From Ianthella basta (Eukaryota > Porifera > Demospongiae > Verongiida > Ianthellidae), in contig OZ025889.1 of assembly GCA_964019415.1 (NCBI GenBank), positions 843,501-907,500 on the forward strand: a stretch of DNA of 64,000 nucleotides, in the 5' to 3' direction. Position 1 is the first letter of the stretch. Each line of letters starts with the position of its first letter. Shown piece after piece: positions 1-64,000 of the stretch. The position numbers were made by a program, and so were the translations under genes. Under the pieces are notes generated by a model, which made no database searches, was not told where the DNA came from, and was given only the letters and a program-made list of their open reading frames with translations.

Positions 1-89
1 GCTCATCTTGCTCAATTGGTTCCTTCTCTTCGCCCAAAGCAGTCATGTTAACCGCAGTACCAATGTCCAGCACAAAGGGAAAAGCCGCA

Positions 90-100
90 GGGGAATCCCC
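90..100. promoter_or_regulatory. NF-kappaB-type site upstream of KLHDC2-like gene 1
   Basis: The palindrome GGGGAATCCCC fits the kappaB consensus GGGRNWYYCC and sits 27 bp before the ATG at 128. Equivalent sites precede the other kelch genes of the window. The same alignment position in gene 2 holds a degraded version. Binding is inferred. Confidence 0.55.
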
Positions 101-127
101 TGTGTAAATGGCTATCATCATCACAAC

Positions 128-2284
128 ATGGCCGTCGCAGCTAAGGATTTCTTTCAAATGTACAGCAGAAATGCCGGCGGCGGAGCAATATGTGAAGAAA
201 GGTTGTACATTTGGGGAGGACACTCATCGAGAAGAACAACATCGGTAGAAGAGTTTGGTGCCTCTTCAGACGAGAGTGATGGAGAGGCCGAACCCGAGGT
301 GATGGTAATTCCTTTCGACTTTCCCAAGGAAGACGACCCTGATAGTGTGATAGACGTTTACGACATTGCGGACAAGCTGTGGTGGCACTATCCGACGCAC
401 GGTGATGTGCCGCGGGTGGGCCTCGGTCCTCAATTGTGTGTAGTCGATCGCTCCCTCTACCTGTACGGCGGATGGAATAAATACAACTTCAGTTCTGATC
501 TGTATCGACTCGACCTACACACGTACGAGTGGAGGATGGTTGCCCTGACCAACGACGTGAAGCCCACCCCTGTGTACCTTACAACACTTATAGTCTATGA
601 AGGAGTGATCTGTACCTTTGGCGGAGTTGGCTTAGCAGTCTCTGCAGAGAAGCTGGAAGAGTGTGAAGCGGAGTACCATCAATATAGTACCATACCTAAA
701 CTTTGGGGCTGGAACAATGAGTACCACGAGTTCAGCATTAAAGAGCGTAAGTTAGCTACTTCTACTCCAACACTCTGACTGCCATTGCATTGTGTACGTT
801 AGTTCCCATACGCTGCAGTGTATCCAATAGTCTACACTGCACAGGTTTGCAATGTGAAACATCTAATAGTCAAGACTGCATGTTTCAACAAGATGTGTAG
901 GTTTCACTGAAAGAGTGAGATCATTGTCTGCTTCATTTCCGCAAGTGACACACAAGTGGCTCTCACTCCTCTCTTCTTGCTTCCCAGGTTGCTGGACGGC
1001 TTACAAAGTGGCCAACCGCCCACCACCTGTCAGTGCTATGGACATGGTGATGGTTGACAACCACCGTGCCATCCTTTATGGAGGTGGGACAAGAGCAGGC
1101 AGGCTCCGTCGTGTGTTCCTGTTCAATCTTCAGACAAGGGTGCGAGACACATGTGACTAGCCAGTAAAGTGTGAACTGTCTTATCATTATACATCTTTTC
1201 GCTGTATTTATAGGAGTGGCTTGAGCCAGCACGCCCACCAGATGACCCAGCCATCCCTTGGCCAAGCCAAAGAGTATTCCACACTCTGTCTTGCCTTCAT
1301 GAGCCCAGTACAGTGGGGAAGATGGTGTACGGCCAACCAATACACCAGAAGGTGCTTCTTCTTGGAGGAAAATCTGAAGGTGACTGGATCTCACATGAGG
1401 AGTGGCTGTTAGAAATTGTGGAAGACAACATTACTTGGAAGAAGGTAGCTTAAAGAGTACACAGCTTGTCACAAGTTTAGGTATAGCATTTTAAACCCGA
1501 ATTATAATTCAGTGATTAATTTATTGATTATGTTTTAGGTTCCATTTATTTGTGGCACTGGTGCTAAATATAATTATGTATTTTATGACAAATTTTCCTG
1601 ACAGCTTATGAGAGTAGCATTGGCTTCTTCTTTGTCTTCAGCTCAACCTGGGTTTTAAGCCTCCTCGCTCTTGGCACATTGCCTGCACACACTACCCCTC
1701 CATGGGCCAGAGTGAGGTGCTGCTGTTTGGAGGAAATGTGCATGTCAAGCCTGGTGAAAAGCCAAGAGTAGAGACAGCAGACCTGCGAATACTGAGCTGG
1801 GGTGGGTTGCAAGTTTTTTTTACACAAAATTAATTGGTATGATTTCCCACATACTGATCATGATGTAAGCTTCCTACTCGTTAAGCCCTCTGCCAATTCT
1901 TACTTACTCAATGCAAGGATGCAAATGCGGTCGACCACTCAGCACTGATCCATGCAGCATTGTAGCTATTCAGAGTGATAATGTTGATATTGATGTTAAC
2001 GGCATCATTCATGATTGTGTTGTGGTTATGAAGCAATGCTTCTAACGTGGGTTACCACACACAAGAGTGAACATGACAGGGAGGGTATACACTTCTTGTA
2101 CCCATGCACAGGTGTTCCCAGACTCAGTGAGCTGTGTTTGCAGGCTACCACTGTGCTGCAAGATGGCTACCTGCAGTCTCTAGTGAGCAGGAATGTGCTT
2201 CCAGAAGCACTGGCAGCAGCAGTGAGGGACCACAGGAGGAAGATGAGGGTCTACAAGCCTCAGGCTATTGTCCTTCCTGGATGA
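128..2284 (+). CDS. KLHDC2-like kelch protein 1 (putative CUL2-EloBC C-degron receptor)
   Basis: Five exons: 128-746, 988-1139, 1214-1444, 1642-1801 and 2112-2284, joined in phases 1,0,0,1 to 444 aa. Kelch blades are recognisable by LYIWGG, LYLYGGWNKY, GVICTFGG, AILYGG, KVLLLGG and EVLLFGG, each followed by a W- or Y-containing strand. GWNNEYHEF matches the GWND segment of human KLHDC2, and PRSWHIACTHYP matches its PRLWHTACA. The last exon encodes RLSELCLQAT, a BC-box-like helix for elongin C, as at the end of KLHDC2. The family delivers proteins with particular C-termini to CUL2 ubiquitin ligases. The start at 128 is chosen because all paralogues begin at this MAV; the frame is open further upstream. 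Blade 1 carries an acidic SSDESDGEAE insertion. Uniquely among the four left-arm copies, the product ends in Gly. Confidence 0.85.
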
Positions 2285-2301
2285 AAACTAGCTCTGCAGT
2301 C

Positions 2302-2307
2302 AATAAA
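2302..2307 (+). terminator. Poly(A) signal AATAAA of kelch gene 1
   Basis: AATAAA lies 18 bp after the stop codon of the gene ending at 2284. The same hexamer occurs at the same distance after gene 2. Confidence 0.6.
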
Positions 2308-2894: not shown

Positions 2895-3480
2895 TCCTTC
2901 AGATCTGAAGGATGCTGCCATGCAGACAAAGGTGGCGCATTGGACCTGACTCCAACTCAAAGCTGAGTATCCGACATTCAAACTCTGCTGAACTGGAGTA
3001 CATCAGAACCTGCAACCGAGGTGCAGGTACATAACTGTTTGTACATGCATGATTGTGCACCACAGACATGCACACACACATGCACACACACACACTTACG
3101 TGCATGTGTACACATGCACATACACATACACACACACATACACATGCACACACTTGCCTGCACACATGCATACATACATATTAGTATACATATGAATTAT
3201 AGGCAACAGACAGCACAACAACTATCTGGTGAGCTTACATCAAGTGCTTGTGGCAGAAGAGGGGCAAAGACAATATCGATCTGCTGTCCACTCTGAACAC
3301 GTGTGCCTATTCAGAGGCTGGTAGACACAAACGTACAAAGACATGGAGGCTCCACGAAGCAGCTCCTGACCCAGTGAACTGTAGCAGATGCTCTGGTCCT
3401 GTACGCTGGGTGGATCAACATCCATCTCATTACTGTCTGCAGGGTCCACTGCCACAGCATGCAGGTGGACTGGCTGTTGA
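2895..3480 (-). pseudogene. Relic of a ZU5/UPA-death gene
   Basis: On the minus strand, 3455-3240 reads NEMDVDPP, then ELLRGASMS, CVYQP and EWTAD in order. This is the order of the end of the ZU5 exon in the intact genes (TMEVDQP, ALNKASMS, RVYQP, WWTAD). Further on, about 3010-2895 contains EFECRILSFELESG, resembling the start of the next exon (FECYSTVFHLELQT). No ZU5 core or death domains remain, so this is a decayed fragment. It lies between kelch genes 1 and 2, where the alternating pattern predicts such a gene. Similarity was judged by eye. Confidence 0.5.
3063..3180. repeat. CA-rich microsatellite
   Basis: Interrupted CA/TG repeat, which seems to lie in the position of an intron of the decayed ZU5-death gene. 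Confidence 0.7.
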
Positions 3481-4640
3481 AATATGATCTACCAGTGGTG
3501 CTTCCACTTCTGCAAGTACTGCACTTATGTTGACGGGGCTGTCTTCAGATGAATGTGAGGATGAATTACCTTTTCAAAACTCTCAGAGAGTGAGAGCTTA
3601 CGGAGGTCACTGACCAAAGGAGGGAGGAGGAGAATTGACAGTTTTTGATTGAGAAGAATCCGCCAATATTTACCGCCCGCTAAATTGTATAACCATTCAG
3701 GCATAAGACTTATACCTAATCGCTAAGGGTAATTCACCGATTTGCCAAAATTTGCACAATTTGCCAAAATGCCACCAACATTTCCCGCCATACAGAATAT
3801 TAGTCAAACTGTACTGTCTGTCATTAATTTTAGTGTTCTATTTTGAATAGTAAAATGTTCTTTTTTGAATAGTAAGTGTCTCCATGGGTGGTCTAGGATC
3901 ATGCCCCCCAATTAAGGAAAATTGTCTTTTAGGCCATCTGAGATTCATTCTGAATCAATCTGATACAGTAGGTATAGGACGTTACTGCCATTTTCACTGC
4001 AATCAGCAAGCATTCTAGGGGATGCTGGAGTATTTGGTGGAGAGGAAGTTTCTTCAAAATAGGTGGAACCCTTGTCACACACTAGTGGCATTAATTCATT
4101 GTTGCATGATTGTGCTATTGTTGAATAAACTAGCTTAAACCTGAACAATTGATTCAGAACACTGTATTATTACTTACTTATAAGTATAAGATGTGTGTAC
4201 ATACATGTTGCTGGGCTCCCATGCAGACCAGCGTTAAATTAGCTGATGGGACTCTCCTGTTAATAACTAATAATATCAATGTCAATGACATATAATATCA
4301 AAATTGAATATGTAACAACGCAATGCAGTGGGAAATGAGCACCACTTTGAGTTTCATAGTGAAAGTCAACATTGCATGTCATTGATCAGTGATGTACGTT
4401 AAACAGTGTGCAATAACTATAAATGATTGAAACAGTACGTGTAAATGTGCAGGAATCCAGGTTCTACACAGATATAATTTGGTGTACCACAAGCTTAAAA
4501 CTTCTGGCAGGCTTCCAAACTAGTACAACTGTACGCTACAGTCGTTGTCACTGCATGATTTGTTGCTTGCAGGGCATATATTATAAGCTCCTTAATCCCA
4601 TGTTCAGCCCAGACGCGTCCAGCGAAGGGAAAAGTCGAAA
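3481..4640. other. Gene-free stretch between ZU5 relic and kelch gene 2
   Basis: AT-rich sequence with short frames only. I see no splice-consistent exon or named repeat. Confidence 0.5.
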
Positions 4641-4670: not shown

Positions 4671-7600
4671 ATGGCTGTCACAGCTAAGGACTTCTTTCGA
4701 ATGTACAGCAGAAATGCAGCCGCCGGAGCAATATGTGAAGAAAGGCTGTACATTTGGGGAGGACAGTCATCGAGAAGAACAACATCGGTAGAAGAGTTTG
4801 GTGCCTCTTCAGACGAGAGTGATGGAGAGGCCGAACCCGAGGTGATGGTAATTCCCTTCGACCTCCCCAAAGAAGACGACCCTGATAGTGTGATAGACGT
4901 TTACGACATTGCGGACAAGCTGTGGTGGCACTATCCGACGCACGGCGATGTCCCGCGAATGGGTCTAGGCCCTCGATTATGTGGTGTCGACCACTCCCTC
5001 TACCTGTACGGCGGATGGAATAAATACAACTTTAGTTCGGATCTGTATCGACTCGACCTACACACGTACGAGTGGAGAATGGTTGCCCTGAGCAACAACG
5101 TGAAGCCCACCCCTGTGTATCTCACAACACTTGTGGTCTATGAAGGAGTGATCTGCACCTTTGGTGGAGTTGGCCTAGCAGTCTCTGCAGAGAAGCTGGA
5201 AGAGTGTGGAGCGGAGTACCATCAATATAAGGCCATACCTAAACCTTGGGGCTGGAACAATGAGTACCACGAGTTCAGCATTAAAGAGCGTAAGTTAGCT
5301 ACTTCTACTCCAACACTCTGACTACATGTCACTGCATTGTGTATATTAGTTCCCGTACACTGCAGTGTATTCAATAGTCTACACTGCACAGGTTTGCAGT
5401 GTGAAACATCTAGTCAAGACTGCATGATTCAAGATGTGTTAGTCTCGTCCCCAGCCCACCACTTCTGCTAACAAATGGCCGCGGAAAGGTGGTCTGGTAT
5501 CTTTGGGCCGATTCCTTGGCTCGCCTCGACGCATCTCGACTATGTTGCATGGCCAATCAGATCGCCGCTTGATCACGTGCCTACCGAAACCACGCGTGCG
5601 CCTCGTAGGTGAACATATATGGGATGACTCTCAAATGTTCTTTTTGGATCTGGATCATGCCACAGAATTAACTGGATCCCAATTGTGGACTATCCATAAT
5701 CCAAGAAAGAACACTTACACCTTGAGACTCCTCCCTATTCAGCTTCACATACAAGGTTTGTGCGTGGTTTTTGGTAGACACATGACCAAGCAGCAATCTG
5801 ATTGGCCAAAATTATTTGGGATGGCGAGATTAAAGAAATCAGCTCAAACATACCAGACCACCTTTTCCACAGCCATTTTGTTAGCGGAAGTGGTGGGCTG
5901 GGAACGAGACTAAAGATGTGTAGGTTTCACTGAAAGAGTGAGATCATTGTCTGCTTCATTGCTGCAAGTGACACACAAGTGGCTCCCACTCCTCTCTCTT
6001 CGTTCTCTGCAGGTTGCTGGACGGCTTACAAAGTGGCCAACCACCCACCACCTGTCAGTGCTATGGACATGGTGATGGTTGACAAACACCGTGCCATCCT
6101 TTATGGAGGAGGGTCAAGAGCAGGCATTGTCCGTCGTGTGTTCCTGTTCAATCTTCAGACAAGGGTGCGAGACACATGTGACTAGCCAGCAAAGCGTGAA
6201 CTGTCTTATCATATATACTCCTTTTCACTGTGCTTATAGGAGTGGCTTGAGCCAGCACGCCCCCCAGATGACCCAGCCATCCCTTGGCCGAGCCGAAGAG
6301 TATTTCACACTCTGTCTTGCCTTCATGATCCCAGCACAGTGGGAAAGATGGTGTACAGCCAACGGATACACCAGAAGGTACTTCTTCTAGGAGGAAAAGA
6401 TAAAATTTATCTTATCTCACATGAGGAGTGGCTGTTAGAAATTGTGGAAGACAACATTACTTGGAAGAAGGTAGTTTAAAGAGTACACAGCTTGTCACAT
6501 GTTTAGGTATAGCATTTTAAACCCTAATTATAATTCAATGATTAATTAATTGATTATGTTTTAGGTTCCATTTATTAATGGCATTTGGTGCTAAATAATT
6601 ATGTATTTTATGAGAAATTTTCCTGACAGCTTATGAGAGTAGCATCGGCTTCACTTCTTTGCCTGCAGCTCAACCTGGGTGTTAAGCCTCCTCGCTCTTG
6701 GCACATTGCCTGCACACACTACCCCTCCATGGGCCAGAGTGAGGTGCTGCTGTTTGGAGGAAATGTGCATGTGAAGCCAGGTGAAAAGGAGAGAGTAGAG
6801 ACAGCAGACCTGCGAATACTGAGCTGGGGTGGGTGGATGCATTGGCACTTATTGCAAGTTTTTTTACACAAACTGTTATACAGTAGAACCTCACTTAACC
6901 AGGCACCATGGGACTGGGCAGTGCCTGTAGCTCAGAAATGACCGTATCTTAGAAATACCAACACTACAGATTAAATGTATAATTATATCAGAATACACAG
7001 TGAAAAAATAGCAAGACTTAGTGACAATACAGATTAAATGCAATGTAATTACAATAATTGCAATTAAGCTGTAATACAGTACTCATGGTACTGTACTGTA
7101 ATACAGTACATATAGTACTGTACATGTAATACAGTACATACACATAAGTAAAAGTTTTTTTAAAAACTGAAAAAAATTTGTAGATAAACCTTTTTTTATA
7201 AATTCTTTTTTGCCTGCCCAGTAGAGATAAGTGCCCGTAACTAAGAGGTCCAGATAGGGGAGGTTCTACTGTAATTTCCCATGCACATACAGATCATGAT
7301 GTAAGCTTCCTACTCTTTAAGCCCTCTGTCAAATCTTACTTTTACCCAATGCAAGGACTGAAGTGTGCAAATGTGGTCACTCAGCACTGATCCATGCAGC
7401 ATTGTAGCTATTCAGAGTGATAATGTTGATATAGATGTTAATGGCATCATTGTGTTGTGGTTATGAAGCAATGCTTCTGACATGGGTTACCACACACAAG
7501 AGTGAACATGACAGGGAGGGTATACACTTCTTGTACCCATGCACAGGTGTTCCCAGACTCAGTGAGCTGTGTTTGCAGGCTACCACTGTGCTGCAAGATG

Positions 7601-7719
7601 GCTACCTGCAGTCTCAAGTGAGCAGGAATGTGCTTCCAGAAGCACTGGCAGCAGCAGTGATGGAGCACAGGAGGAAGATGAGGGTCTATAAGCCTCAGGC
7701 TATTGTCCTCCCTGAATGA
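4671..7719 (+). CDS. KLHDC2-like kelch protein 2
   Basis: Exons 4671-5289, 6013-6164, 6240-6470, 6669-6828 and 7547-7719 give 444 aa, with the same exon sizes (619, 152, 231, 160, 173 nt) as gene 1. It is the closest relative of gene 1: MAVTAKDFFRMYSRN against MAVAAKDFFQMYSRN. Distinctive differences are a KDKIYLIS stretch in exon 3 where gene 1 has KSEGDWIS, and a C-terminal PE. Its introns took two transposon insertions that gene 1 lacks: a 473-bp MITE in intron 1 and a 391-bp TA-flanked MITE in intron 4. The duplication of genes 1 and 2 therefore predates both insertions. The reading frame is intact. Confidence 0.85.
5440..5912. mobile_element. 473-bp MITE with 9-bp target-site duplication (MULE-like)
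   Basis: The termini are TAGTCTCGTCCCCAGCCC and its near inverse GGGCTGGGAACGAGACTA; the inverted repeat extends about 40 bp. It is flanked by AAGATGTGT at 5431-5439 and 5913-5921. The paralogous intron of gene 1 has the uninterrupted site CAAGATGTGTAGG near 890, which proves insertion. A 9-bp duplication is typical of Mutator-like elements. No transposase is encoded. Confidence 0.9.
6881..7271. mobile_element. 391-bp TA-flanked MITE
   Basis: It begins CAGTAGAACCTC and ends GGGGAGGTTCTACTG, flanked by TA (6879-6880 and 7272-7273). It is absent from the paralogous intron of gene 1. TA duplication and these termini suggest the Tc1/mariner/pogo group. The interior is AT-rich and non-coding. Confidence 0.75.
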
Positions 7720-8106: not shown

Positions 8107-9666
8107 CTAGTGTCTTGCACTAGCAAGATTCTGTACAAAATTGCTGAGGTAGAAAATGGCGTCACCTGTTGCACCTGTACCTCTGGAAGTTAGCTGAAGT
8201 GCAGCCATAAGTCTGTAGTAAGTGATGTCAGAAGGGTTCAGGGTGCGTCCGACCCATTTGAGGAGCATTTGGTGGCAAGGTTCACTCGGCTCCTGCTGAT
8301 TTTCAGATGCTATGTCAATTGCTGCAATGTCTGAGTCTGTCAGGCCAAGCATCCTGCCCACCATCCTCCATACACACACAAGCTTCGGGGACAGGCATAG
8401 GAACAGGGCATCCCGCTCAGCCCTACCAGGTGAAATGATTCTCTTCTCCTCTATGCTACATGATAGTGTTAGATAGGGGTGGTTCACACGCAACCAAGCA
8501 ATGAAGCGAGTTGAAATGCTGTCATTTCCCTCTGCCAGAGTTTCAGAAGTAACCAAGTTGAATGACTGCAGGTAGCTTCGTAGAATGGGGACCAGGTCAT
8601 CTGATCTACCAATGTCATCTAGGCTCACTAGTACCTTGCCAAATGTGAGTGCCTGTGCAGTGTCCCTTGCACGTCTGAACATCTCATAAGCTCTCTCCCC
8701 AACATTGAGAGCACTCCCTGCAGTGTAGCCCGACATGACTTGATCTATCGTGAGAGGTTGGAGACCGAGAGAACTTCCAAGAGTGACCAACTGGTCTCCT
8801 GGTATCATGATGGAGAGCAGGGCAAGGACATAGCAGTCTCTTTCCCACCGTAGGGTTAAGGGGGTGGGAGGGGTTGGAGGGAGGGGCTCTGGAGGGGTAC
8901 CCTGCATGTGATCTAAGGCAGTGTGTCCTGCACGACAGGGATATATGCAGTAGTTAATACAATGTATATACATGGGTATACATACAATACTGTAGTTACA
9001 TGTATGTATCTACTGTACTAGGACCACAATGTATGGATCTTACCAAAGAGTACAGATGTACAGTCTAATCACACAGGCAAACATATATAATAGCATGTTC
9101 CATACAGTACTGTAATTGCATTACAAAGGCATTCAACTAAGGCCACACATCCTACAATTCAGCACACATACACACTGTATAAAATGGAATGGTAAGACCG
9201 TTTAACAACAATTGCGTCGCCTGGCTTGCTTACCACATGACTGAAGCCCTGTTGGGCCATTTGAATCCAAATTGCTACAAACCGCACTCTGTGTTGCTTC
9301 ACTGTTCACAGTTCTCGGTCGATCTGCTTGACAGGTGAGGTAGCAGTGAGCTGTAGGCCAAGAGCCCTCCACTGTTACTGGGTATTGGAGGGGGAGGGAG
9401 GCTCCACTGTTGTGCACTGTGACCAGTGACTTTGGGAGGAGGTCGGACAATTTGGACATGTCTTCATTCAGCAACTGAGTCACAGTTGTGAGGTGCTCCA
9501 GCAAAATCTACAAGTGTTGAAAGACAAGCAATATTAAAATGGCTGACTCACTTCACCACAAATACACACACAATTATATGCACAAATGCATACACACACA
9601 CACACACAAGCACACACACACATCACCACACCACACACATGGGTACACACACACGCATGCATGCAT

Positions 9667-9717
<51 letters not shown>

Positions 9718-11537
9718 CCACTCCCACACTCCATATTCACCTCTTTTGTGCTCAGTTCCACTCTCCACTCTTGAATTGAGGAGGGCTCACTGTGCAATCG
9801 AATCAGTTGTAGATGCACTTCCAGGCGAAAGGACACAGTGTCAATCTCACTTCTTGCACGCCTTCGGCACACTGCCAAATCCTATATATGTAAACCAGAA
9901 ATAAGTGAGTCTGTTAAAAAGCACAAGGTGCTGCCTGGAGTCAGTAGTCAATAAACAGTGCACATTCACCAATGACTGTGTTTTAGGTTAGCACTGTGTA
10001 TGCACTGTGTAGGTAGCCAAGCAGCAGTGTACTGTGTGGACATTGTGTACTGACAGTACCTTAAGCGCTCTGGGAAGGAGTGGAACAAGGACAATCTCAG
10101 CCATCCACCTCACCATCTTGTCTCTCCCTGCAGGCTGACAGACACACGCAATGATAGACAGGTATGCCGACGTTTCGTTGACGGGCTCTTGTTGTAATGC
10201 TGTGCTGGATGCAGTGTTGACTGGTGCACACTGATCTACTTCCATTGCCTCTTCATCACCGCAACCATCACTTGCATCTTGGCGTAGGAGTACTTGGTCA
10301 ACATGGGCATCTTGGCGAACAAGTGCTTGGCGCTGTTCTTCAACTGATGCTTTGTTACTTTCTTCAACTGATGCCTCGCTACTGGCGTTCTGCATTTCAA
10401 TGAGCGTTGTTCTTTTCTCTGCTGCACTGGAGCATGTTGCTGACTCCATCACCTCCTGCTTCACCTTCTTGCAGCGGACATGAGGACTGCCAGACTTATC
10501 ACTGTCAAAACTGTCTGAAATACTCAGTTTGTGCAGAGACTCTCTCACACAAGATGCAGTAGTCAGCCTCTTTCTTACATGAGACACAGTAGTCTGCTTC
10601 TTTGTGGTACCAAACCTCTTCTTCGGTGCGTCTATGGCACAGAACTTGCTGAAGTGGCGTAGAGGAAGGTTGACATACGGGTAGCCATCACTGAAAAGGG
10701 CCTGCTCCTCCACCTCCACCTTCCCTCTCCTTTCGGACACGACAAAGGCTGTGGAGTAATCTTTTAGTGAGCATCCTCCAAATGACAAGCAATGTGGCAG
10801 TTCAATCCACACATCAGAGTGGAACTTCACTCCATCTGAGGCATCTACCAACTTGGCCTCAAACTCAAACACACCACTGCAAAGGACAGAGCCTTCAAAC
10901 ATGGAATGGGAGAGGAATTGATTAATTTCTGCCTCCACTGTTACCAGCCGAAAGGATACCTCCACTTGCTCCTCCCCCAAAATGGCTCCAGCAGGGATGT
11001 ACACTGTCACTCCATAGACAGGTGAGTACAGGACACCACCAGTGGAGGAGAAAATGGCCAACGGGTTGTCATCAAGGGGACAGTGGTACTTGAATGGAGG
11101 CAAGGATGCTGTGGCTAACTCCGCACCTTGTGAAGAATCTACAGGCAGATGATGACGTTGCATTAAACAAAACACGCACACACATGCAAATTATATAACA
11201 TGAAGTTATGTACTGCAATTAGAGCTATGCAGTTAGGCAGTATGACTACACAAAGTGATACACAAGAGCATAAAGTAATGAAACAACACAACTGATGTAT
11301 TATGCTAGTGAATATTTATAATGTAGAGCATGTGATGTGTGTTTATTGGCAACATTACCACCTTGGTTAGGGTGTGTGACACTGAATCTTCTATGCTACC
11401 GGTATTGTAATGATTGCATAATACTTATGATGATGTCATAAAATTTAAAAATGCATACTTACACACATGTACGTACATGCACACACACAGACATACACAT
11501 ATGCATGCGCACATGCATGCACACACACATACACGCA

Positions 11538-11571
<34 letters not shown>

Positions 11572-11580
11572 CACACACAC

Positions 11581-11654
<74 letters not shown>

Positions 11655-11658
11655 ACAC

Positions 11659-11741
<83 letters not shown>

Positions 11742-12136
11742 GACGTACCAGTAACCATTTCACTTGCAACATGCTCTTCTTCCAACCTCTTCACGTCTAC
11801 TCCTGTAGCCTTGGTCAATGCTGAAAACAGCATATTATGGTTCTGTACGGCTGGCGCAGACTCCTTCAGAGCCAGAAGGAAACCTCGACGGAGTGCTTGC
11901 GACTTCTTTCGCGTTAACAAGGCTGGAAATGCTACCGCTGCATCGCCCTTCGTTTTCGTCTTCAATACTTCTTGACGTTTCTCACTGATTAACTGATATT
12001 TTACTAAAGTGGGCAATATAATGTCCCAATCCGTGTGTTGTAGGACAGTATCGTACATATCGCTGCGTAGAACCTGTGCCAGCCGATCATCTTGCTCCGG
12101 GCTCAGTTGTTTGGATACAGCATCCTTGCCCGCCAT
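8107..12136 (-). CDS. Death-fold/ZU5/UPA/death-death protein 1 (CARD-like N-terminus)
   Basis: Minus-strand exons 12136-11749, 11138-10060, 9881-9741, 9507-9234 and 8927-8107 join in frame to 900 aa. Residues about 10-105 form a helical CARD-like death fold (DDRLAQVLRSDMYD, FLLALKESAP). About 155-305 is ZU5: GGVLYSPVYGVTVYIPAGA, WIELPHC, then LRHFSKF with the HF/S autocleavage triad of PIDD and NLRP1. A charged linker follows, then a divergent UPA (LIRLHSEPSSIQEW, VEGSWPTAHCYLTC). Two death domains end it: LGSSLGLQPLTIDQV and VWRMVGRMLGLTDSDI. Such proteins act in apoptosis and inflammasome-like signalling. Its N-terminal domain is unlike those of the right-arm paralogues and sits on its own exon. 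It starts 132 bp from divergent kelch gene 3. Confidence 0.8.
9583..9716. repeat. CA microsatellite in intron 3
   Basis: Mostly CA dinucleotides, ending 25 bp from the 5' splice site at 9740 of the minus-strand ZU5-death gene. Long Thr-His or Cys-Val frames here are artefacts. Confidence 0.9.
11469..11739. repeat. CA microsatellite in intron 1
   Basis: About 270 bp of CA repeat with a CTCTCTCTC interruption. On the coding (minus) strand it reads (GT)n and begins about ten bases inside the 5' splice site of exon 1. Confidence 0.95.
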
Positions 12137-12268
12137 TAGTACGCACTACATCCGCCACTTACCCCCACTTGAAGCTAGAATACACATACTAAAAACAGTG
12201 GGACGGGCACACCACTTGTGCGGATATAGAATTCAAAGGGGATTTCCCACTGATTACGTCATGTGAAC
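12137..12268. promoter_or_regulatory. 132-bp bidirectional promoter with kappaB and CRE-like sites
   Basis: This is all the DNA between the ATG of the minus-strand ZU5-death gene and that of plus-strand kelch gene 3. It contains GGGGATTTCCC at 12238-12248, a perfect kappaB site, and TTACGTCA at 12254-12261, a CRE/ATF-like site. Shared control of both genes is inferred. Confidence 0.65.
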
Positions 12269-14798: not shown

Positions 14799-15297
14799 AA
14801 TTAGGTGTTGTAAAGCATCTTCTTTCAATGTTGCATCTGTACATACATAGACGTATTTAAGCGATTCTCCCAATTTATGAATTAATCTCTTTAAATTACA
14901 CTCTGGCAACCAGAAAAGTTTTTTCTCAGCAAGACAATGTACATTGTTCATCTCATTTTAATCATCATTGTGTTATGTATTTGTAGGCATGCATCTTAAG
15001 AGCTACGTAGTATAATGACATGCAGTTTATTACCCTATATTTCACATATTAAATACATACTACACAGTGTCTGTGTATGTGTGGGTAGTTGGTACACAGT
15101 ACAAGATACAAAGGGTTAAACGAGTCCCATCTCTTCCAGTAAGTTCTGAGACACTCTGGGGTTTTCAGTCTCCTGTGAACACACAAATATCAGCCAATCA
15201 GAAGACAGTCACCAGCATAATTATTGTGAATCAATAAAATACTGCAATAGCAGAATGCATCTACAAACACCACTCATCACAACAAACAACACACTGC

Positions 15298-15300
<3 letters not shown>

Positions 15301-15383
<83 letters not shown>
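15301..15383. repeat. CA microsatellite at 5' splice site of truncated AP1S exon 5
   Basis: Pure CA tract, (GT)n on the coding strand, beginning exactly at the 5' splice site. The homologous tract in the intact gene is more than twice as long and interrupted. Confidence 0.9.
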
Positions 15384-15385
<2 letters not shown>

Positions 15386-15534
15386 CTTGTAGCATGTCTG
15401 CTGATGCAATGGCTTTATTGACTTGCTTCTTGCTTGTCTCTTGTACCATTCCTCCCAACAGAAACTCGTCCAACACAAAGTAAGCCTGCATGAGGTAAAG
15501 AGTGATTGAGAGTTATAGTATGCCAGCATGTGCG

Positions 15535-53300: not shown

Positions 53301-54006
53301 AAGAGCAGTACATGCACACACACGCACGCACGCATGCACACACACACACACCTGAGAAATCCTTATTGACAAGAAACTCATGATACTCATTATTCTGTCC
53401 ATAGTCCTGAAATTCTTGATACCGAGTATAGTCTGCACCAGCTTTGTGACGCTTCTCATCCGACATTGGCATGCTTTTACCACCGAACACAACCAGGCGG
53501 TCCTTGTACGGGACGATAGAAGTGCGATAGACTGGTGTGGGTCGTACTGAGTTCGTCGGCTCCATCTTCTCCCACACCATGGTGGACAGCTGAAGGCGAC
53601 GCAGGTCGGAGGAGAAATGGAACTCGTTGTGTCCAGCATACAAGTAGAGGTAACCAGGACCGTATGCGCACATTGCAGCGCCGTAGCCTGGAGGTGGAAC
53701 GTCGCCCTTGGTGCTGTATTGGTACCACAGTTTGTCGTGTACGTCGTACACGTCTATCAGGTTCTTCTCCGTGTGGGGTAGGTTTCTTCTTACGCGGAAT
53801 ATCCGAGGAATGCTGCCGACTGTGAGAGAAGCAGAAGAGTCATCTTCTTCGGAGTCGGATGCGTCCGAAATGTAATCCTCCATCCGTTCTGGCACCACAA
53901 CGATACCTCCCCAGCAGTAGAGGCGCCCTTCATGCAAGACGGCGCAATGGGCTCTTCGCTCAAGCAAAAACAAACGATCTTCGGGAGTTGGCCTCACAAC
54001 CGCCAT
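50313..54006 (-). CDS. KLHDC2-like kelch protein 8
   Basis: Exons 54006-53352, 53282-53128, 52928-52704, 52372-52183 and 50581-50313 give 497 aa. Start MAVVRPTPEDRLFLLERRAH. The acidic loop differs (EDYISDASDSEEDDS). Exon 1 ends three codons later than in gene 5 (NKDFSG). Intron 1 is only 69 nt, nearly all GT/GC repeat, and keeps the frame open, so retention would add 23 residues without a stop. Exon 3 lacks two codons (VWGEGDV for VWGEGEGDV). Intron 4 is unusually long (1.6 kb). The tail ends DCGWNIPQRKWPFHY, different from the other copies. The next gene upstream is divergent ZU5-death gene 4. Confidence 0.83.
51898..51929. repeat. Perfect 15-bp inverted repeat
   Basis: Arms CCGATCACGTTCCCT and AGGGAACGTGATCGG are separated by CC, inside intron 4 of kelch gene 8. 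In RNA it would form a stable hairpin. No element boundaries are visible. Confidence 0.85.
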
Positions 54007-55427: not shown

Positions 55428-56741
55428 ATGGCTGCTATGGATCAGCTGACTACCAAGGACTTGCTGTTCCCTGTCAGAAATGCTTTTCATGCTAAAGTGG
55501 ACACCGACTCCCTCATGTCTGCAATGGACCGGAACCAAATGCTAAAGGGGAAAGAGAAGAAGCTATTGAAGCGTGTAGATGAGAGTGCAAGAAGGACCCT
55601 TCTCTTTGACAAATTGTACTCTGCTGAGCAAATGTCTGCAGAGAGTCTGGTTAAGCTGTTTGCAGAGACAGAAAATGAGAAGAATATGCAGTTTTCTGAA
55701 GTACTTCAGTCTCTTCTATCATCAATTCAAAATTCAGCTATAACTGGTTAGCACACTAAATGTATTCTACCTACAGCTAAGGAATGATTATATAATATTA
55801 TACAGTATGTTTTGGGTCAGTTGTCCTGACCAGAAGGTTGCAATCGGTTATCGGTTATAAATTATTAACCTAATGACGTCATTTTTACGTGCCTTTAGTA
55901 TACCCAATTCTGTTGGCGGACGGTGTGCAGGAGATTCAGGGTATTTGGCGAAGGTGGGCGACTTGAATCACTTACTGGTAGTGATTTGACAGTTTTTAGG
56001 GGCTGCCGCAGGCAGCCCCTATATTGTTTTCGTTTTGACATTTTGTTGTATGGCTTCGTGTCCCACTTCCGGTGGTATATATGTTGGTTTATATAATACG
56101 TAAGCTACGGCAGTATAACTGTGCTAGCATTTATATTCTAATGTATTGACCAAAGTATTGAGGATAGGGAATTTATATTGTACGCTATTTATTCGGCTGA
56201 AAGACCGTGTGCGAGGTCAAGGGACTTTCGAAACCAGCTTCTAAACGTCGTCTTAGCGAACTTTGGACGTCCTCTTCCGCTGCCAATCGCGGAACAGACT
56301 CCTACAACACTTCTGGTCGACGGGCAAAGAGACAGCTTCGAGACAGCGCCCAACAGGTCATCGACTTCACCATGCGCCTTCTCGATAATGGCCGCGCCCG
56401 CCTCAGAAGACTTCACTGCGCCGCTTGAAGCACATGACACGAGTAACGTAGAAACTGGTGAGCGCCGTGATATGTTCACGCTAACATTTTCAACTGTCTG
56501 TAGCGTTGAAAAGCTCAGCGCGCACAGTTGCTCTTCAGAACCTGGCCCACGCGTACTGCGCTGTAGCAAACCACGTACGTAGCTTTTGCCATCACAGAAC
56601 ACTAGCTACTCTCGCGACTGTGGGTTCCTTCGTACATTTGTTTCTGTAAATACTCTTTGTAAATGCATGTGCTGCAAGCAGTCACGTGTCTGTGCTGGTG
56701 GAGATTTCTCTGTGCTTGTGTGTGGTGTGTGCGTGCATGCA

Positions 56742-56829
<88 letters not shown>

Positions 56830-59800
56830 AAGGTCACAAAGGTGTATGACACAATATCATGTTTATTGTGAGTGACAGAGCAGCGACCGAAGAGAGCAAG
56901 TATTTTGAGTTGGGGTGGCAGCCCTATGAGTTTATTTAACTCGAAATACTTGTTTCAGTGGTCTGGAAAACAGGTTACAGAAAATCGGGGCACACGATCG
57001 GTACAAGCCTGCTTAGCCCCTGCACTGTCTGTTCACTTATCGTGGAGGTGTTTTTCTCTTGATGCAGAAACGTCCCCACCATTCTTAGCCTTAAATCATC
57101 CAAATACGCTTTATCCCAGTCTTCCTCGTTCCAAACGCCACTGCTTCAACTAGACTTGTAGCTGCCATATGACATCACCAGGTCAATAACCAATAACCGA
57201 TTGCATATATCCAGTCGGGACAGCCGACCCAAAAGTACTGTATAGGACTACATTGTCCACCAGATAGGTGGCTGCATTATGTATGGACAGGTGTAGTAGC
57301 TGTATTGTTTGTTTGTCAAATATGGGAGCTGGCTGCATGCTTGACAACTGTCTTATTTAACATTGACTCTAACTTCCTTTGTACTTTCCATTATATGAAT
57401 TTGAGCATTTTCAATATCATTTCCTGTTCCCCTATCCTCGCAGTAGCTACCACATCTGTTGTAAAAACCATCTCAGCTGCTGAACAGGTTTCTGAACAGG
57501 GTATGTTCATTAATTTTGCAAAACAGTGCATGTGAGTTTTAATTGCAGGTGCTCATATTAATTCATTATTTTTCTTTGGGCAGTGTTGACCACACCATCC
57601 TTGCCTCCATTCAAGTACCACTGTCCCCTTGATGACAACCCTTCGGCCATTTTCTCCTCCACTGGTGGTGTCCTGTACTTACCTGTCCATGGAGTGACGG
57701 TGTACATCCCTGCTGGAGCCATTTTGGGGGAGGAGCAAGTGGAGGTCTCCTTTCGGTTGATAACAGATGAGGCAGAGATCAAAGAATTTCTCTCCCATCC
57801 TGTATTTGAGGGCTCTATTGTTTGCAGTGCTGTTTTAGGGTTCAAAGCCAAGTTGGTAGATGCCCCAGATGGAAAGAAACTTGGCGACTTCCGTTCTGAT
57901 GTGTGGGTTGAATTCCCACATTGTTTGTCATTTGGAGGATACTCACTGAAAGACTACTCCACAGCCTTTGTCGTGTCCGAAAGGAGAGGGAAGGTGGAGG
58001 TGGAGGAGCAGGCCCTCTTCAGTGAGGGCTACCCATATGTCAACCTTCCTGTACGCCAATTCTGCAAATTCTGCGTTGCACATTTGCCAAAGAGGAGATT
58101 CCGGGTGCACATGTGCACCACCAAGAGGCAGGTTGCCGTTTCTCGAGTGAAGAAGGCCATGAAGAAAGTTGATAATTCTGAAAGCATCAGCAATGAGCCA
58201 TCAGCCAGCCCTTGTGCCCACTCCAGGCAGCAGAAGCAGAGGATGATGGAACCATCAACAAGTGTCAATGGAGCAGGGGAGAGGTCTGGATATGTAAGCA
58301 ATGAAAAGAAGAAAACAAGAAGCAAGGGATCAGCAGATAACAAACGTCAAGTATTCATTCACCAGGATTCCAGTGGCAACCACAGTGTTGAGGATGCAGT
58401 AGATATCTACCAGCCTGCACCAGTCAGCACTGCATCCTGTGCAACATTACAACAAGAGCCCCTCAATACGGCATCAGTATCTGTCATGGCCTGTGTATGT
58501 CAGCCTGTTGGCAGACACAAGATGGAGAGGTGGACAGCCGAGATCATCTTTGCTCCACTCCTCCACAAAGCACTCAAGGTATGTGCCTGTTTGCTTAACT
58601 CATACAATACACTACATATACTTCATATCTGCCTATAGCTTGGTCTATTACAACATATCCTTGCTGCTAGACTCACTTTCATGTTGTACAAGTGAAGTTA
58701 GATTGAGCTGCCATTGTCCATTTCACACCTTTGTGTCACCAATGAAATTGCTGCCAACGAAAATCACACAGGTATAATTATCTCAGCTTGCCACTCTATG
58801 GGTATTTATTAACTCAGGTTCTCTTGACATCTATACCTCTGAGACCTACTTACGTAGTCTATGGACCTGTGAGTTCTGGTCAATCCTTCTGATCTGTGCA
58901 ATTATTGCAATAATGAGAAGCTTGGAGTAGTGACCAGACTATAAAACAGTATAGATCCCGTTGTCATGGTAACGGGCGTCTAAATGCTGAAATTAAATCA
59001 CATAGACGCACAGCAAGCATTTCGCGGACAAACATGTAGCCAATAGGACGAGCGCTTGCATCTCGCCAGACCGGCGCCAGTGCATCTAAATCCCAGAGAT
59101 GCACTGTGCGCAGTGGATCTAAATGCCGAACATGTACTGTTTTGTGGCACGCGCGGCGTTCGCGCTGTGTTCTAAATGCAGCTGTGATAGGCAACAGTAT
59201 CTAACGCCACAACATACGATGCACAGGTCGCCTGGCTCACTTGCTTTGTCGAGAAACAGAGAAAAGCCACAATCCGGCTACGAACCAGAGCCGAGAAAGA
59301 ATCCGGTTAGCTACGAGCTGGGAACAGGCTTTGGTTAAAGACATCGCTCTAGGAAACGCTGTGGCTGACGTGACTGACAGTGAGTAAGCTTACGCTTAGC
59401 TGACACGCCGCATCCACTGCCGACCTGTAGGAAACGTCCGCTGCGAGATGAACAGCTCAACTTGGACCCAAATCACACGACGTTTTCTCTGCCACTGTCA
59501 GGAGTAGCTAACTACTTCCGGTAGACGCATGATGACGCAAGGACGAGTACGTAAACTGATTCGCTGCCGGTTCCTCACCCAATAATTTGGGATCTATAAC
59601 ACTTAAATGCTGACCAATCGGTGTCTCTGAAGATTTAGACCACTCGGCACTCGGGCGCTTCGCGCCCTCGAGCCTCGTGCTCTAAATCTCAGAGACACCT
59701 CTTGGTCAGCATTTAACTATTACGTAGCTAGCCCACTGCATTTCATGATTATGTGCATGCCACATATGCATATGATGGCAGCTGAAACCTGGCAACAACA

Positions 59801-60031
59801 TAAATGCAGCCTTACTAGATTTGTAATACAGTAATTTATTATTTGTAAGATTGCTTGCTGTTTGAATATGCATGATTTGTTCTTGTAGGAATTGGCAAAG
59901 TGCCAAAATCGGGTGAAGCATGAAATTTGTGCTGTGTCCTTTCGTCTGGATGTGCGTCTACAACTGATTCAATTGCACAGTGAGCCCTCCTCAATTCAAG
60001 AGTGGAGTGTGGAGTTGAGCACAAAAGAGGT

Positions 60032-60087
<56 letters not shown>

Positions 60088-60178
60088 ATGTGTGAGCGCG
60101 TGCACGTGTGTGTGTGTGTGTGCATGCACATGTGTGTGTGTGTACTGTGTGCACGTGTGTGTGTATGCATGTGCACGT

Positions 60179-60248
<70 letters not shown>

Positions 60249-60277
60249 ATGTGTGCACGTGTGTGTGTATGCATGTG

Positions 60278-60331
<54 letters not shown>

Positions 60332-61734
60332 CATGTGTGCACGTGTGTGTATGCACATGCATGTTGGATGGATAGAAGTGCGAAGGCAGATGTATGCTTA
60401 TACTGGCTTGGTCTCATGCAGATACTGTTAGAGCACTTTACAGTGGTGGCTCAGTTTCTGAAAGAAGACACAACATCCACCACAATGTCCACCTTCCTCC
60501 CAAAGTCCCTGGTCACAGTGCACAACAAGGGAGCCTCCCTTCCCCTCCACCACCCAGTAACAGTGGAGGGCTCCTGGCCCACAGCTCACTGCTACCTCAC
60601 CTGTCAAGTAGGACCACAAAGTGTGAAGAGGGCTGGAGGGAAACCCATGATGGCACAGACTTTAAAGCCAAATGTCCCAACAGAACACCAGTTGCAAAGT
60701 ATGTAAGGAAACAGGGCAAAACACATTTAAATTACAGAGAGACAATGCATGAGGATGTGTTATACTGTTGTACATGTATAGTGTGGTGCACACTCTTCCG
60801 GTCTGTCGATCTCTTGTTACTGTTTTTGCTATGCTATAATTTTATGTACCATTGCATAGCCTGCACATTACATCCTTCCCAATCAGACCCCTACCCCTCT
60901 CATATAGATATCACTGCCTCTGATGCCAATCCGGGTGCTACTCAAGAGCCCCACCCTCCAACCCCTCCCACCCTACGGTGGGAAAGAGACTGCGGTTTCT
61001 TTGCCCTGCTCTCCAGCGTGATACCAGAGGACCAGTTGGTCACACTCGGAGGATATCTTGGCCTTTCACATCTTAAGACAGATAAAGTCATGTCGGCAGG
61101 GAGTGCTCTCAATGTTGGGGAGAGAGCTTATGAGATGTTCAGACATGCATGCAGGAGTGAACAAGCACTCACTTTTGACACAGTACTGGTAGGCCTAGAT
61201 GAAATTGGTAGATCAGATGACCTGGTCCCCATCTTGAGGAGGTACATTCAATCAGAGCTCATGTCACAGTCAATCAAAGCAGATAGTCCTGGAGCTCCAG
61301 CTGAAGCAAACAGTGATCTTCTTCCTTCAGTGCTATTCACCACCTGGTTGCATGCCCACGATCCCACCCTTCTACCACGTGTAAGTCTACCTGGCGTAGC
61401 AAAGGATAGACTCATTCTACCTGAGGAACAAGGAGCACTCTTTAAAGACCTTTCACGAAGGATGGTGTGTGTTTGGAGAATGGTTGGCAGACTGCTCGGC
61501 CTCCCTGACTATGAGATTGAGGCAATTGACATTGAAGGCAGGAGGTCAGGAGACAGAGAGTGTGAATCATGCTACCAACTACTCCTCAAGTGGGTGGAAT
61601 ACAGCCAGCCTTCTGACATCACATACTACAGACTGATGACAGCCCTTGAGCTGATCTCTCTGGGTGGGGGTGCAGCAATGGATGCCACTTTTTACCTCAA
61701 CCATTTTGTACTGCACCTCACCAGTGCAAGCTAA
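55428..61734 (+). CDS. Death-fold/ZU5/UPA/death-death protein 4
   Basis: Exons 55428-55746, 57444-57500, 57584-58578, 59889-60029, 60422-60698 and 60887-61734 join to 878 aa. The N-terminal death fold (KDLLFPVRNAFHAKVD, TLLFDKLYSAEQ) is followed by a small Ser/Val/Glu exon, then ZU5 (GGVLYLPVHGVTVYIPAGA). Where the other copies have VRHFSKF this one reads VRQFCKF, losing both His and Ser of the cleavage triad. The UPA-like region reads WTAEIIFAPLLHKALKELAK, LIQLHSEPSSIQEW and VEGSWPTAHCYLTC. The C-terminus has death domains LGGYLGLSHLKTDKV and VWRMVGRLLGLPDYEI. Intron 1 contains a 1.4-kb inverted-repeat element. A possible poly(A) signal, ATTAAA, is at 61861. It converges with the partial paralogue at the window end. 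Confidence 0.8.
55803..57240. mobile_element. 1.44-kb TA-flanked inverted-repeat element
   Basis: Inverted ends of about 75 bp: CAGTATGTTTTGGGTCAG at left and the inverse of CCGACCCAAAAGTACTG at right. Both continue into GCAATCGGTTAT and end near TGACGTCAT/TGATGTCAT. TA lies at both borders (55801-55802, 57241-57242). The interior holds a GC-rich segment (56200-56580) with three overlapping open frames, unrecognised, and a GT microsatellite. No transposase is seen. Confidence 0.75.
56744..56827. repeat. GT microsatellite
   Basis: Pure (GT)n, inside the inverted-repeat element in intron 1. Confidence 0.95.
58950..59345. repeat. CpG-rich interspersed repeat in intron 3
   Basis: It begins GTTGTCATGGTAACGGGCG, shared with GTTGTCATGGTAAAGGGCA at 38630 in kelch gene 6 intron 2. 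It contains repeated TCTAAATGC motifs. Boundaries are uncertain. Confidence 0.5.
59603..59716. repeat. 114-bp foldback element
   Basis: Arms TTAAATGCTGACCAA and TTGGTCAGCATTTAA, then GTGTCTCTGA/TCAGAGACAC, around a GGGCGCTTCGCGCCC core: a nearly full-length hairpin. Confidence 0.85.
60034..60355. repeat. GT microsatellite in intron 4
   Basis: About 320 bp of interrupted (GT)n starting five bases inside the 5' splice site of exon 4. Confidence 0.95.
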
Positions 61735-62656
61735 GAGATAGACCATTATCTCTCTACATATACACTCATGATCACTTCATCCAATCAATGGATATTTGCG
61801 GTGTGTAATGTCCTGTGGACTATACATTTATACAGATTACCCAATCAGTGATATGGTATAATTAAACTTTCAACAGCTGATGTGCTCACTTCATGCTTAC
61901 ATGTGCTTTGGTACACACAATTTCACTTAATGGCAGATTTGCTTCATAATCATATATATGCATGTGCATGCTGCATTTCATACACAGTATATACGTTTCT
62001 ATAAATTATAGTGGATGCAAGCATCCATGGACAGTATCTTGACTCAACCATGTGCAGCCCCAGCTGTACTGCTAAATTATTTTACTGCATGCATGGCTAT
62101 ATAGTACTTCGTCGAACCCTGCAACTCATATATGAAATTGCCAAACCTCTTGCAAAAAATAGGGTGTCAAGTTTAGCCGCATTTGCCCAGGACCCACCAC
62201 GTGGAGGTACTTGACTTCAGTCCCACAATTTGGCAAGTCTCGCGAGGAGATGCCCCTGGTTGTGCTCCAACGGTCCGGTGGGAAGTGTTGTTCCGGCCGG
62301 AATGGGGCGATCACGAAGACCACACGTGGAATGGGCTGAGTGAACAATGCCAAACCACACCCACACAGCTCCCCAGGCAGTCAAGCTTTCAGCGCAACAG
62401 ATCTAGCTCCAGGCGGTGAGACCATGCCTTCGGTACACCAGTCCCCCATACTACGTATGGCCCATACTAGATGGTAGGCAGACTTGAGATCGGTTACTTT
62501 CTTTCTCACCTCTCTCACCTGGAGTTCGAACCCGAAGCGGTTACGGCAAGCACACTGGGTTCTTACAACACGACCGAAGGAGGAGGTACAATTTGTGCTA
62601 TTTATATATACCTCACTTCATTGCGCCGAGTAAATAAAGATGTGAAAAAACATTTC

Positions 62657-62729
62657 TATCGCTGGGCTTGAACCGGGAACTTTTGATTACAAATCGGCTA
62701 ACTTACTCATCGAGTCTACCGCCACTCCG
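62657..62729 (-). repeat. tRNA-Thr(TGT)-like, probably SINE-derived
   Basis: The minus strand has CCGATTTGTAATC, an anticodon loop like that of tRNA-Thr(TGT), and GGTTCAAGCC, a polymerase III B box, at the right spacing. Acceptor, anticodon and T stems are poorly paired, so this is not a functional tRNA. It may be a SINE head. Confidence 0.35.
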
Positions 62730-62766
62730 TGGGTGATGAATGTAATTTATGCCTATGTCATGTAAT

Positions 62767-63000
62767 CACATGGGTTTGGGTGAACAGTAGCTTTACTGTA
62801 TTGACCCAATCCCATGTGGTTATGCAATCCTCAATGTCATATGACCACATGGGATTGGGTCAACAGTAGCTTCACTGTATTGACCCAATCCCATGTGGTT
62901 ATGCAATCCTCAATGTCATGTGACCACATGGGATTGGGTGAACACTGGATTCACTGCATTGGCACCCAACCCTATGTGGTTATGCAATCCTGTTAGCTTT
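62767..63000. repeat. 79-bp tandem repeat, three copies
   Basis: Units start CACATGGGATTGGGT at 62767, 62846 and 62925. Each unit holds an inverted pair, CACATGGGATTGGGTCAA and TTGACCCAATCCCATGTG, so each can form a hairpin. Confidence 0.9.
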
Positions 63001-63623
63001 TAGCTGTGTTGACCCTATCCTGTGGCAGGTACTGTCCCACCTAAGAGGGCAGGACAGATTATAGGCCAGGTGCAACAACAGTCAACCCAAACAGTGTGTG
63101 TGTGTGGTTAGGACACATTGAGTGTATGCAGTGTGTGGTGGTCCAGTGTGAACAGTCTATGACCACATTAGGGTAGACACTGGGCTGCATGGTAGTGGCC
63201 AGAGGTGCACTGTTAGTGGTAGAGGATGCTGTACCACACTATAAAGTCTTTGATTGATTCAGTGTATCTGCGATTGTGAGTGCGACCTACACACATACAC
63301 ATACAAATAGAGCAAATAGTAAAATTAATAACTCCTTAGAATGAAAACCAGATCATCGATCGGACCTGTCAATTCCATTCTGGTCTGCCATTGACAGACA
63401 TTTGAATTGCAAATTTGACTTTATCAGCTACGTATAAACATGAAATAATAATGGTACAAGAGCATAAAAATGCAAACCACACAAGTATAGACTGTGGACA
63501 AAGATCAGCTGTTAAAATATGTAGGCAATGAAATGACATTGATTGGACTGTATAAAAAACCTGCAATGTTGTTAGTAGACTATGTTCATTGATTGGATGA
63601 AGCATGTGTAGAGAGTTAAAGGT

Positions 63624-64000
63624 CTATCTCCTTGCACTGGTGAGATTCAGTACAAAACGGTTGAGGTAAAAAATGGCATCCAGTGCTGCACCCCCACCCA
63701 GAGAGGTCAGCTCAAGTGCTGTCATTAGTCTGTAGTATGTGATGTCAGAAGGTTGGCTGTATTTCACCCACTTGAGGAGTAGTTGGTAGCACAGTTCACA
63801 CTCTCTGTCTCCGGACCTCCTGCCTTCAATGTCAATTGCCTCAATCTCATAGTCAGGGAAGCCGAGCAGTCTGCCAACCATTCTCCAAACACACACCATC
63901 CTTCGTGAAAGGCCTTTAAAGAGTTTCTTCTGCAGTTTCTCTGGTGAAATGACTCTGTCGTTTGCTATACCAGGTAGACCTACGCGTGGCAAGAGAGTGG
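63624..64000 (-). CDS. Death-domain protein 5, C-terminal part (cut by window end)
   Basis: The last 125 codons of a ZU5/UPA/death-death gene whose 5' part lies beyond the window. VWRMVGRLLGFPDYEIEAID, CYQLLLKWVKY and ITYYRLMTALEL are the second death domain. It is closest to protein 4 (LPDYEIEAIDIEGRRSGDR), so the two form a tail-to-tail recent pair. Compared with protein 4, it has an additional Lys-rich stretch (EKLQKKLFKG). Upstream domains cannot be checked. Confidence 0.8.
   Translation of the reverse strand, partial: TLLPRVGLPGIANDRVISPEKLQKKLFKGLSRRMVCVWRMVGRLLGFPDYEIEAIDIEGRRSGDRECELCYQLLLKWVKYSQPSDITYYRLMTALELTSLGGGAALDAIFYLNRFVLNLTSARR

Follow-up and report, generated by a model that had tools for sequence, protein, structure and literature searches.

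Why should genes for kelch proteins of the KLHDC2 kind be interleaved, in a sponge, with genes for ZU5/death-domain proteins? The question is raised by 64,000 nucleotides of Ianthella basta DNA (contig OZ025889.1, here C22, positions 843501-907500), which we call the window; coordinates without a contig name count from its first letter. The initial annotation of this stretch offered an answer. ZU5 proteins that cut themselves would expose a new C-terminus ending in HF, a neighbouring kelch receptor would bind it as a C-terminal degron (C-degron), the N-terminal part would be degraded and the death-domain part set free. Our own answer is tentative and held at somewhat short of an even chance: the locus would contain co-amplified, co-regulated pairs of an E3 ubiquitin ligase receptor and a sensor, as we call the ZU5/death-domain protein, and the receptors would read something other than its RHF end. 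The structure of the array is real and unusual. Its parts are of known kinds, and the pairing of kelch with sensor appears to be new as far as searched; titles and abstract beginnings yielded no description of such a gene pair, in a literature search whose coverage most subscription papers fall outside.

The kelch/sensor array

The window is the middle part of an array of 145 kb, which was mapped by comparing all open frames in the 184 kb around the window, and in 20 kb at a second locus, with the exons of the window. Four divergent units, each a sensor on the minus and a kelch gene on the plus strand, occupy C22 814-846 kb, the fourth straddling the left window edge. They are followed by a kelch gene at 848 kb beside a ZU5 relic, by unit 6 at 851-858 kb and by a kelch gene at 860 kb beside a broken N-terminal exon. 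Beyond a housekeeping core, the right half runs on with kelch (minus strand, 875 kb), sensor (minus), kelch (minus, 883 kb), sensor (minus), two kelch genes (both minus, 892 and 897 kb) and a sensor on the plus strand (899-905 kb). Sensor copies without kelch lie at C22 907-958 kb. Within the window this amounts to eight uninterrupted five-exon kelch genes, four ZU5/death-domain genes with all their exons, one partial copy and two relics, the inventory that the initial annotation had given. The interleaving is real; it continues past the window edges, and a pair turns up again at a distant place.

The genome searched comprises 209 Mb in 96 contigs. In the COX1 of its mitochondrial contig nine in-frame TGA codons are read as tryptophan, and the encoded protein resembles that of demosponges, in keeping with a probable sponge host. 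All 12 matches to a kelch exon lay on C22, in the array or at the second locus. The death exon gave 17 matches, all at the same two loci of C22 (two of them adjoining pieces), and the sensor ZU5 exon gave 23, again confined to these loci (14 ZU5 exons, 7 N-terminal exons and 2 second pieces). Scoring was limited to the best candidates, and at family level at least 150 further kelch matches exist in the genome, so this linkage is a statement about the close kelch family. The second locus, at C22:4.951-4.960 Mb and thus 4 Mb from the array, holds one full divergent kelch/sensor pair (unit B) and further kelch exon pieces.

A prominent characteristic of the pairs is their head-to-head arrangement. 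In five of the six pairs whose sensor begins with the N-terminal exon type NT2, the start codons of sensor and kelch gene are 137, 100, 81, 132 and 100 bp apart (units 1, 3, 4, 6 and B, respectively). In unit 4, of which the window holds only the first codons of sensor S4 (1-46, minus strand), the 81 bp apply if that Met is used; other in-frame sensor Mets are found 6-9 bp from the kelch start. The 132 bp that separate the start of S6 from the divergent start of K6 (12137-12268) make up a putative shared promoter. The kelch gene m897 and the sensor S901 also stand head to head, with starts 1.4 kb apart. Judged by eye, units 1, 2, 3 and B have similar spacers, as do 6 and 7; the likeness of 4 and 5 is weaker. 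The amplified element would be this pair of a kelch and a ZU5/death-domain gene, which were probably adjacent and divergent before most of the array arose and maybe share a promoter.

The kelch proteins

The kelch models are homology-based predictions in which every intron had to begin with GT and end with AG. In the window, they comprise 444-497 residues in five exons each and all eight are free of internal stops; in this sense the genes are indeed intact. Four are of the plus type: K4 (128-2284, 444 residues, C-terminus ...VLPG), K5 (4671-7719, 444 residues), K6 (12269-14798, 444 residues, exons 12269-12887, 13041-13192, 13544-13774, 13894-14053 and 14626-14798) and its tandem copy K7 (16974-19407, 447 residues). 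The other four, on the minus strand, form a second subfamily: m875 (30151-32438, 495 residues), m883 (37330-40095, 496 residues), m892 (46862-49600, 497 residues) and m897 (50313-54006, 497 residues). With K1, K2, K3 and KB from outside the window, the plus type counts eight models of 444-447 residues, again without internal stops, as are the four minus-type models of 495-497.

The proteins have the six-blade kelch propeller of the KLHDC2 family. The Pfam family PF24681 scores 4.1e-31 for K6, and exon 1 is above its cut-off in all eight window copies. The alignment of K6 with human KLHDC2 spans blade 2 to blade 6 (KLHDC2 74-366). When the PDB was searched with two kelch queries, KLHDC10 was the best natural chain in both; KLHDC2 came next in one, and in the other, topped by a designed propeller, it stood behind a plant nitrile-specifier protein. 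The name "KLHDC2-like" is therefore right at the family level. The last exon reads LSELC...LPEAL in all eight plus-type copies and SLRSLSLDV...L[SN]PAL in all four minus-type copies. Because the propeller is of the KLHDC type and the tail resembles a BC-box, the protein is probably a substrate receptor of a cullin-RING ligase. The ratio of non-synonymous to synonymous substitution rates (dN/dS) is 0.26 and 0.28 for kelch and 0.35-0.36 for ZU5; no positive selection overall was seen across 12 sets (0.26-0.53). The kelch copies would thus have been kept intact after their amplification.

What such a receptor binds depends on its pocket. In KLHDC2, the residues R236, R241 and S269 hold the degron carboxylate (PMC11470957, PMC10767929, PMC11377542, PMC11568203), and PMC11568203 calls the R-S-R anchor defining. 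In our alignment these residues and W270 fall at the published places. The plus-type copies have RRS (K1, K2, K6), RWA (K3), GRV (K4), GIV (K5), RRA (K7, adjoining a five-residue insert) and GRS (KB) at the three positions; the minus-type copies have TIT (m875), TVM (m883, m892) and IVT (m897). The carboxylate anchor, in the R/F-S-R form of the KLHDCX receptors, is accordingly complete in K1, K2 and K6 only and incomplete in nine of twelve copies; in the window K6 alone, one of eight, keeps it. The three anchor positions belong to the more variable ones. The kelch proteins further differ from KLHDC2, KLHDC3 and KLHDC10, the C-degron receptors of cullin-2 RING ligases (CRL2), by an acidic insert near blade 1 and by forming a tandem family of 12. 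The anchor is, however, located in different blades in KLHDC2, KLHDC3 and KLHDC10 (PMC11568203), and all eight plus-type copies have RSWH in blade 6. The kelch copies may therefore bind C-ends via an anchor in another blade.

The C-termini of the plus-type proteins themselves end in PG in three of eight (K1, K2 and K4, the latter at 2270-2284) and in PE in the other five. P-G is a consensus end for KLHDC10, and both KLHDC2 and KLHDC3 are held by their own tail (PMC11568203); that K1, K2 and K4 might be self-inhibited by their tails is thus conceivable.

The sensors and their putative cleavage site

S36 (33232-36534, minus strand) was spliced in full. Its exons (36534-35272, 34709-34572, 34465-34213 and 34076-33232) encode 832 residues in the order NT1, ZU5, RHF/S site, serine-rich linker, two middle exons, death exon. 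S6 (8107-12136, minus strand) shows NT2, ZU5 with RHF/S site, linker, two middle exons and death exon, and was spliced up to the first middle exon. S44 (41887-44817, minus strand; NT1-ZU5 exon, two middle exons, death exon) and S901 (55428-61734, plus strand; NT1, ZU5 with RQF/C, middle exons, death exon) were located, their splicing being incomplete. Frame-compatible GT-AG junctions between the exons exist in S6, S44 and S901 without being uniquely fixed. The second middle exon is present in all 14 sensors of the two loci. The first is seen in 13, with a weak signal in S2, S3, S4 and SB, and is unclear in S1.

The initial annotation had named these proteins ZU5/UPA/death-death, which stands in part. 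Pfam finds ZU5 and Death above the cut-off in all four window sensors and two Death stretches in one of them; up to an E of 0.1, the PDB matches of the death exons are death domains of RIPK1 only. UPA had no match in the sensors in Pfam, PDB-profile or hhalign searches, of which the PF17217 search gave none even in the PIDD-like gene discussed below. NT1 and NT2 look CARD-like by eye only: no CARD was among their Pfam or PDB-profile matches, and they are outside the 150 CARD matches scored in the genome (the best 150 of 367 candidates).

The partial copy at 63627-64000 (minus strand) is the death-domain end of a frame that continues past the right window edge. It belongs to a minus-strand open frame of 1809 residues (C22:907127-912553), whose end is a death domain of the sensor family and of which 1684 residues have no Pfam match. 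The relics are the 3' end of a ZU5 exon (3243-3488, minus strand) and an NT2 exon in two frames (16318-16851, minus strand), divergent from K7 and without ZU5 or death exons.

That ZU5 should be followed by an HF cleavage-type site proved correct at the level of the motif. RHF/S of the PIDD type follows ZU5 in 13 of 14 sensors, S901 having RQF/C instead, and the predicted cut end extends to LPVRHF in 10 of 14. The genome also has a PIDD-like gene (L027 4289-6496, on C15) with leucine-rich repeats and two ZU5 stretches, both followed by HFS; in the four other ZU5 frames read (an ankyrin-repeat ZU5 frame on C5, three on C21) HFS is absent. The HF/S motif is thus not general to ZU5 in this genome. 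The site serine lies 45 residues past the Pfam ZU5 end in S36 and 53-58 past the second ZU5 end in the PIDD-like gene. The sensors have, in short, the ZU5 domain of PIDD/FIIND proteins and, in 13 of 14, an HF/S site at its end, and self-cleavage at RHF/S is plausible; the protein probably cuts itself there as PIDD does at HF/S.

PIDD1 (LRR-ZU5-ZU5-UPA-DD) has in common with the sensors the ZU5 ending in HF/S and a death domain further on. The sensors differ in having one ZU5, an N-terminal domain of their own, no detected leucine-rich repeats or UPA, a stretch of 129-178 residues that separates the site from the following conserved block, and in being a multigene family. As in the FIIND proteins NLRP1 and CARD8, self-cleavage is presumed to part a ZU5 half from a death-fold half. 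In contrast to these, FIIND/UPA is not detected, the terminal domain is a death domain in place of CARD, and the site is RHF/S, not SF/S (PMC3210808).

Is the cut end a degron?

The degron-release idea is reasonable in kind. The end produced by autoprocessing of USP1 is listed as a source of a KLHDC2 degron (PMC10767929), and CRL2-ZYG11B triggers NLRP1 by degradation; there a CRL2 receptor acts on a ZU5 protein that cuts itself, which is a precedent for the preferred reading as well. The ZYG11B route runs, however, through an N-degron (PMC13379236). In favour of an RHF C-degron one may add the conservation of RHF/S, the three copies with a complete anchor and the chance that the anchor sits in a different blade, which it does in KLHDC3 and KLHDC10 (PMC11568203). 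Nevertheless, we consider the mechanism very improbable. In the parts of the two sources consulted, KLHDC pockets take small ends: that of KLHDC2 accepts GG and GA ends and the GS of its own tail, that of KLHDC3 Gly and that of KLHDC10 Gly or Ala, and Phe is not mentioned (PMC10767929, PMC11568203). CARD8 has been modelled with the Phe ahead of the cut buried, and its halves remain associated (PMC3210808), so the new C-terminus would be hidden. The N-terminal part of CARD8 can also be removed without ubiquitin (PMC9213247). Finally, one of the divergent partners, S901, offers RQF instead of RHF.

Not supported, either, is the claim that sensor and receptor have matched specificities. The ends should then vary with the pockets, and they do not: the cut ends are nearly invariant while the anchor varies. 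In a comparison of divergence among six kelch/sensor pairs with 720 permutations, kelch did not track ZU5 (r = -0.04, 334/720 permutations). ZYG11B, for its part, does not belong to the kelch proteins and is not known to take part in a gene pairing. Matching of the kelch proteins to the C-termini of the whole sensors was considered as well and rejected. The death exons end in LFMS, LLMN, LLMN, LLMN and LFMN beside K1, K2, K3, K4 and KB and in SARH beside K6, and these ends do not follow the pocket residues.

The preferred reading assigns other ligands to the pocket, which would have diversified away from the nearly invariant RHF end. By ubiquitylation, the receptor would control how much of the ZU5/death protein, or of a sensed partner, is present or released.

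The kelch proteins might also do the sensing. In the simpler form of this idea, they themselves recognise the C-terminal ends of proteins that are foreign or damaged, and the ZU5/death gene stands beside them independently or serves as an output further downstream. Variation is indeed dense in the loops of blades 3, 4 and 5 around the pocket, and the anchor residues range over R/G/T/I, R/W/I/V and S/A/V/T/M. Overall, however, the kelch genes are under purifying selection, and loss of the anchor may equally mean that C-end binding was lost; we regard this explanation as distinctly unlikely. Unlikely, too, is an immune module in which co-expressed kelch proteins with diversified C-end pockets would capture foreign or damage-derived ends and then alter the ubiquitylation of the paired self-cleaving sensor; in such a module the ligase would do the recognising and the ZU5 protein would act as trigger. 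In two sponges, exposure to microbial patterns was followed by a fall of kelch-motif genes and a rise of a CARD-domain gene (PMC6208332), which may be genes other than those described here.

Functional pair or chance neighbours?

Co-regulation and a functional link would both be dispensable if unrelated neighbours had simply been duplicated together in a duplication-prone locus, each being kept for its own reasons. Such passive hitch-hiking is a strong rival, not far behind the preferred reading in likelihood. Clear segmental copies are seen: 11685-16387 and 16400-21072 are 89-95% identical and hold K6/K7 as well as a portion of the gene for a clathrin adaptor small chain, whose left copy looks incomplete, and 0.1-2.7 kb is 88-93% identical to 4.7-8.1 kb. 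Sensor-only and kelch-only copies exist, as this explanation would have it, and head-to-head genes are frequent in a sponge genome (PMC4773876). It accounts less readily for the uninterrupted state of all twelve kelch models and for the fact that the sole dispersed locus kept a pair too. This distant pair is the sole independent sign of kelch and sensor travelling together.

Several observations weigh against the co-regulated E3/sensor pair that we prefer. The linkage requires no more than tandem duplication of two neighbours as a pair. Five ZU5 exons at C22 921-957 kb have no kelch exon nearby, and 5 of the 12 kelch genes (K5, K7, m875, m883 and m892) are without an intact divergent sensor. 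Unit 2 (C22:825846-826450) has the same sensor start as the others, then a nonsense codon in the first exon, where it is otherwise nearly identical to unit 1. As for the ligase, the BC-box-like nature of the kelch tail was judged by eye against what we take to be the tail of KLHDC2, and no SOCS/BC-box model was among the Pfam matches of K6 at E up to 5, a search that had no KLHDC2 control. In Amphimedon, 45% of genes are arranged head to head, 11,379 genes lie within 1 kb, and nearly a third may use a bidirectional promoter (PMC4773876). With head-to-head genes so common there, the pairs described here count for co-regulation, not for function.

The quantitative comparisons call for similar caution. 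Kelch divergence agrees with that of NT2 (r = 0.76, reached by 4/720 permutations), and the value for the death exon is 0.39 (32/720); six matrix pairs were compared, and unit 6, which has an alien death exon, weighs heavily. NT2 is only about 0.1 kb away from kelch and ZU5 1-2.4 kb, so the kelch-NT2 agreement may reflect recombination. The ZU5 exons of units 2 and 3 are 97% identical, as are the kelch genes of units 1 and 2. The tests of pocket variation, in which seven positions named in PMC11377542 were compared with the rest of the propeller, are weak: 5/7 pocket positions vary against 110/329 others in one kelch subfamily (p = 0.049) and 6/7 against 120/336 in the other (p = 0.011). The dN/dS of loops, 0.53 against 0.20, is descriptive only, the loops having been picked after inspection of the alignment.

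If kelch and sensor do work together, they would represent an invertebrate counterpart of functional degradation, with receptor and self-cleaving sensor inherited as one unit, and the origin of E3-triggered death signalling would become directly testable. Even if they are unlinked in function, a 12-gene family related to C-degron receptors and varying in its anchor offers a set of natural mutants of the KLHDC pocket.

Other features of the locus and the genome

Scans of bacterial and archaeal genomes and of viral contigs found no relatives, which for an animal gene is no surprise. ARAGORN gave no matches, nor did Rfam at gathering scores. The core between the two halves of the array comprises the clathrin adaptor small-chain gene and an RRM-type gene, which is below the Pfam cut-off and presumably ZRSR-like. 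At 22748-25073, 26319-27421 and 28231-28535, the core contains extended runs of short repeats with a strand bias (CCTGTCCC-, GTGTGGG- and CCTC-like); the large open frames in these look like repeat artefacts.

Elsewhere, the genome has at least 150 CARD and at least 150 kelch matches, many of them on C3 and C2. At positions 1197-6858 of L029 (C3:9885001-9895000), exons that are perhaps one gene encode one or two CARDs (the first above, the second below the Pfam cut-off), an unidentified exon and a kelch propeller contained in a single exon. CARD-like and unidentified exons resembling those of L029 are also found in L034 (C3:11889001-11898500). At 10 of 79 typed kelch places, a CARD match is listed at most 15 kb upstream on the same strand. 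The genome may thus harbour a family of CARD-kelch receptors.

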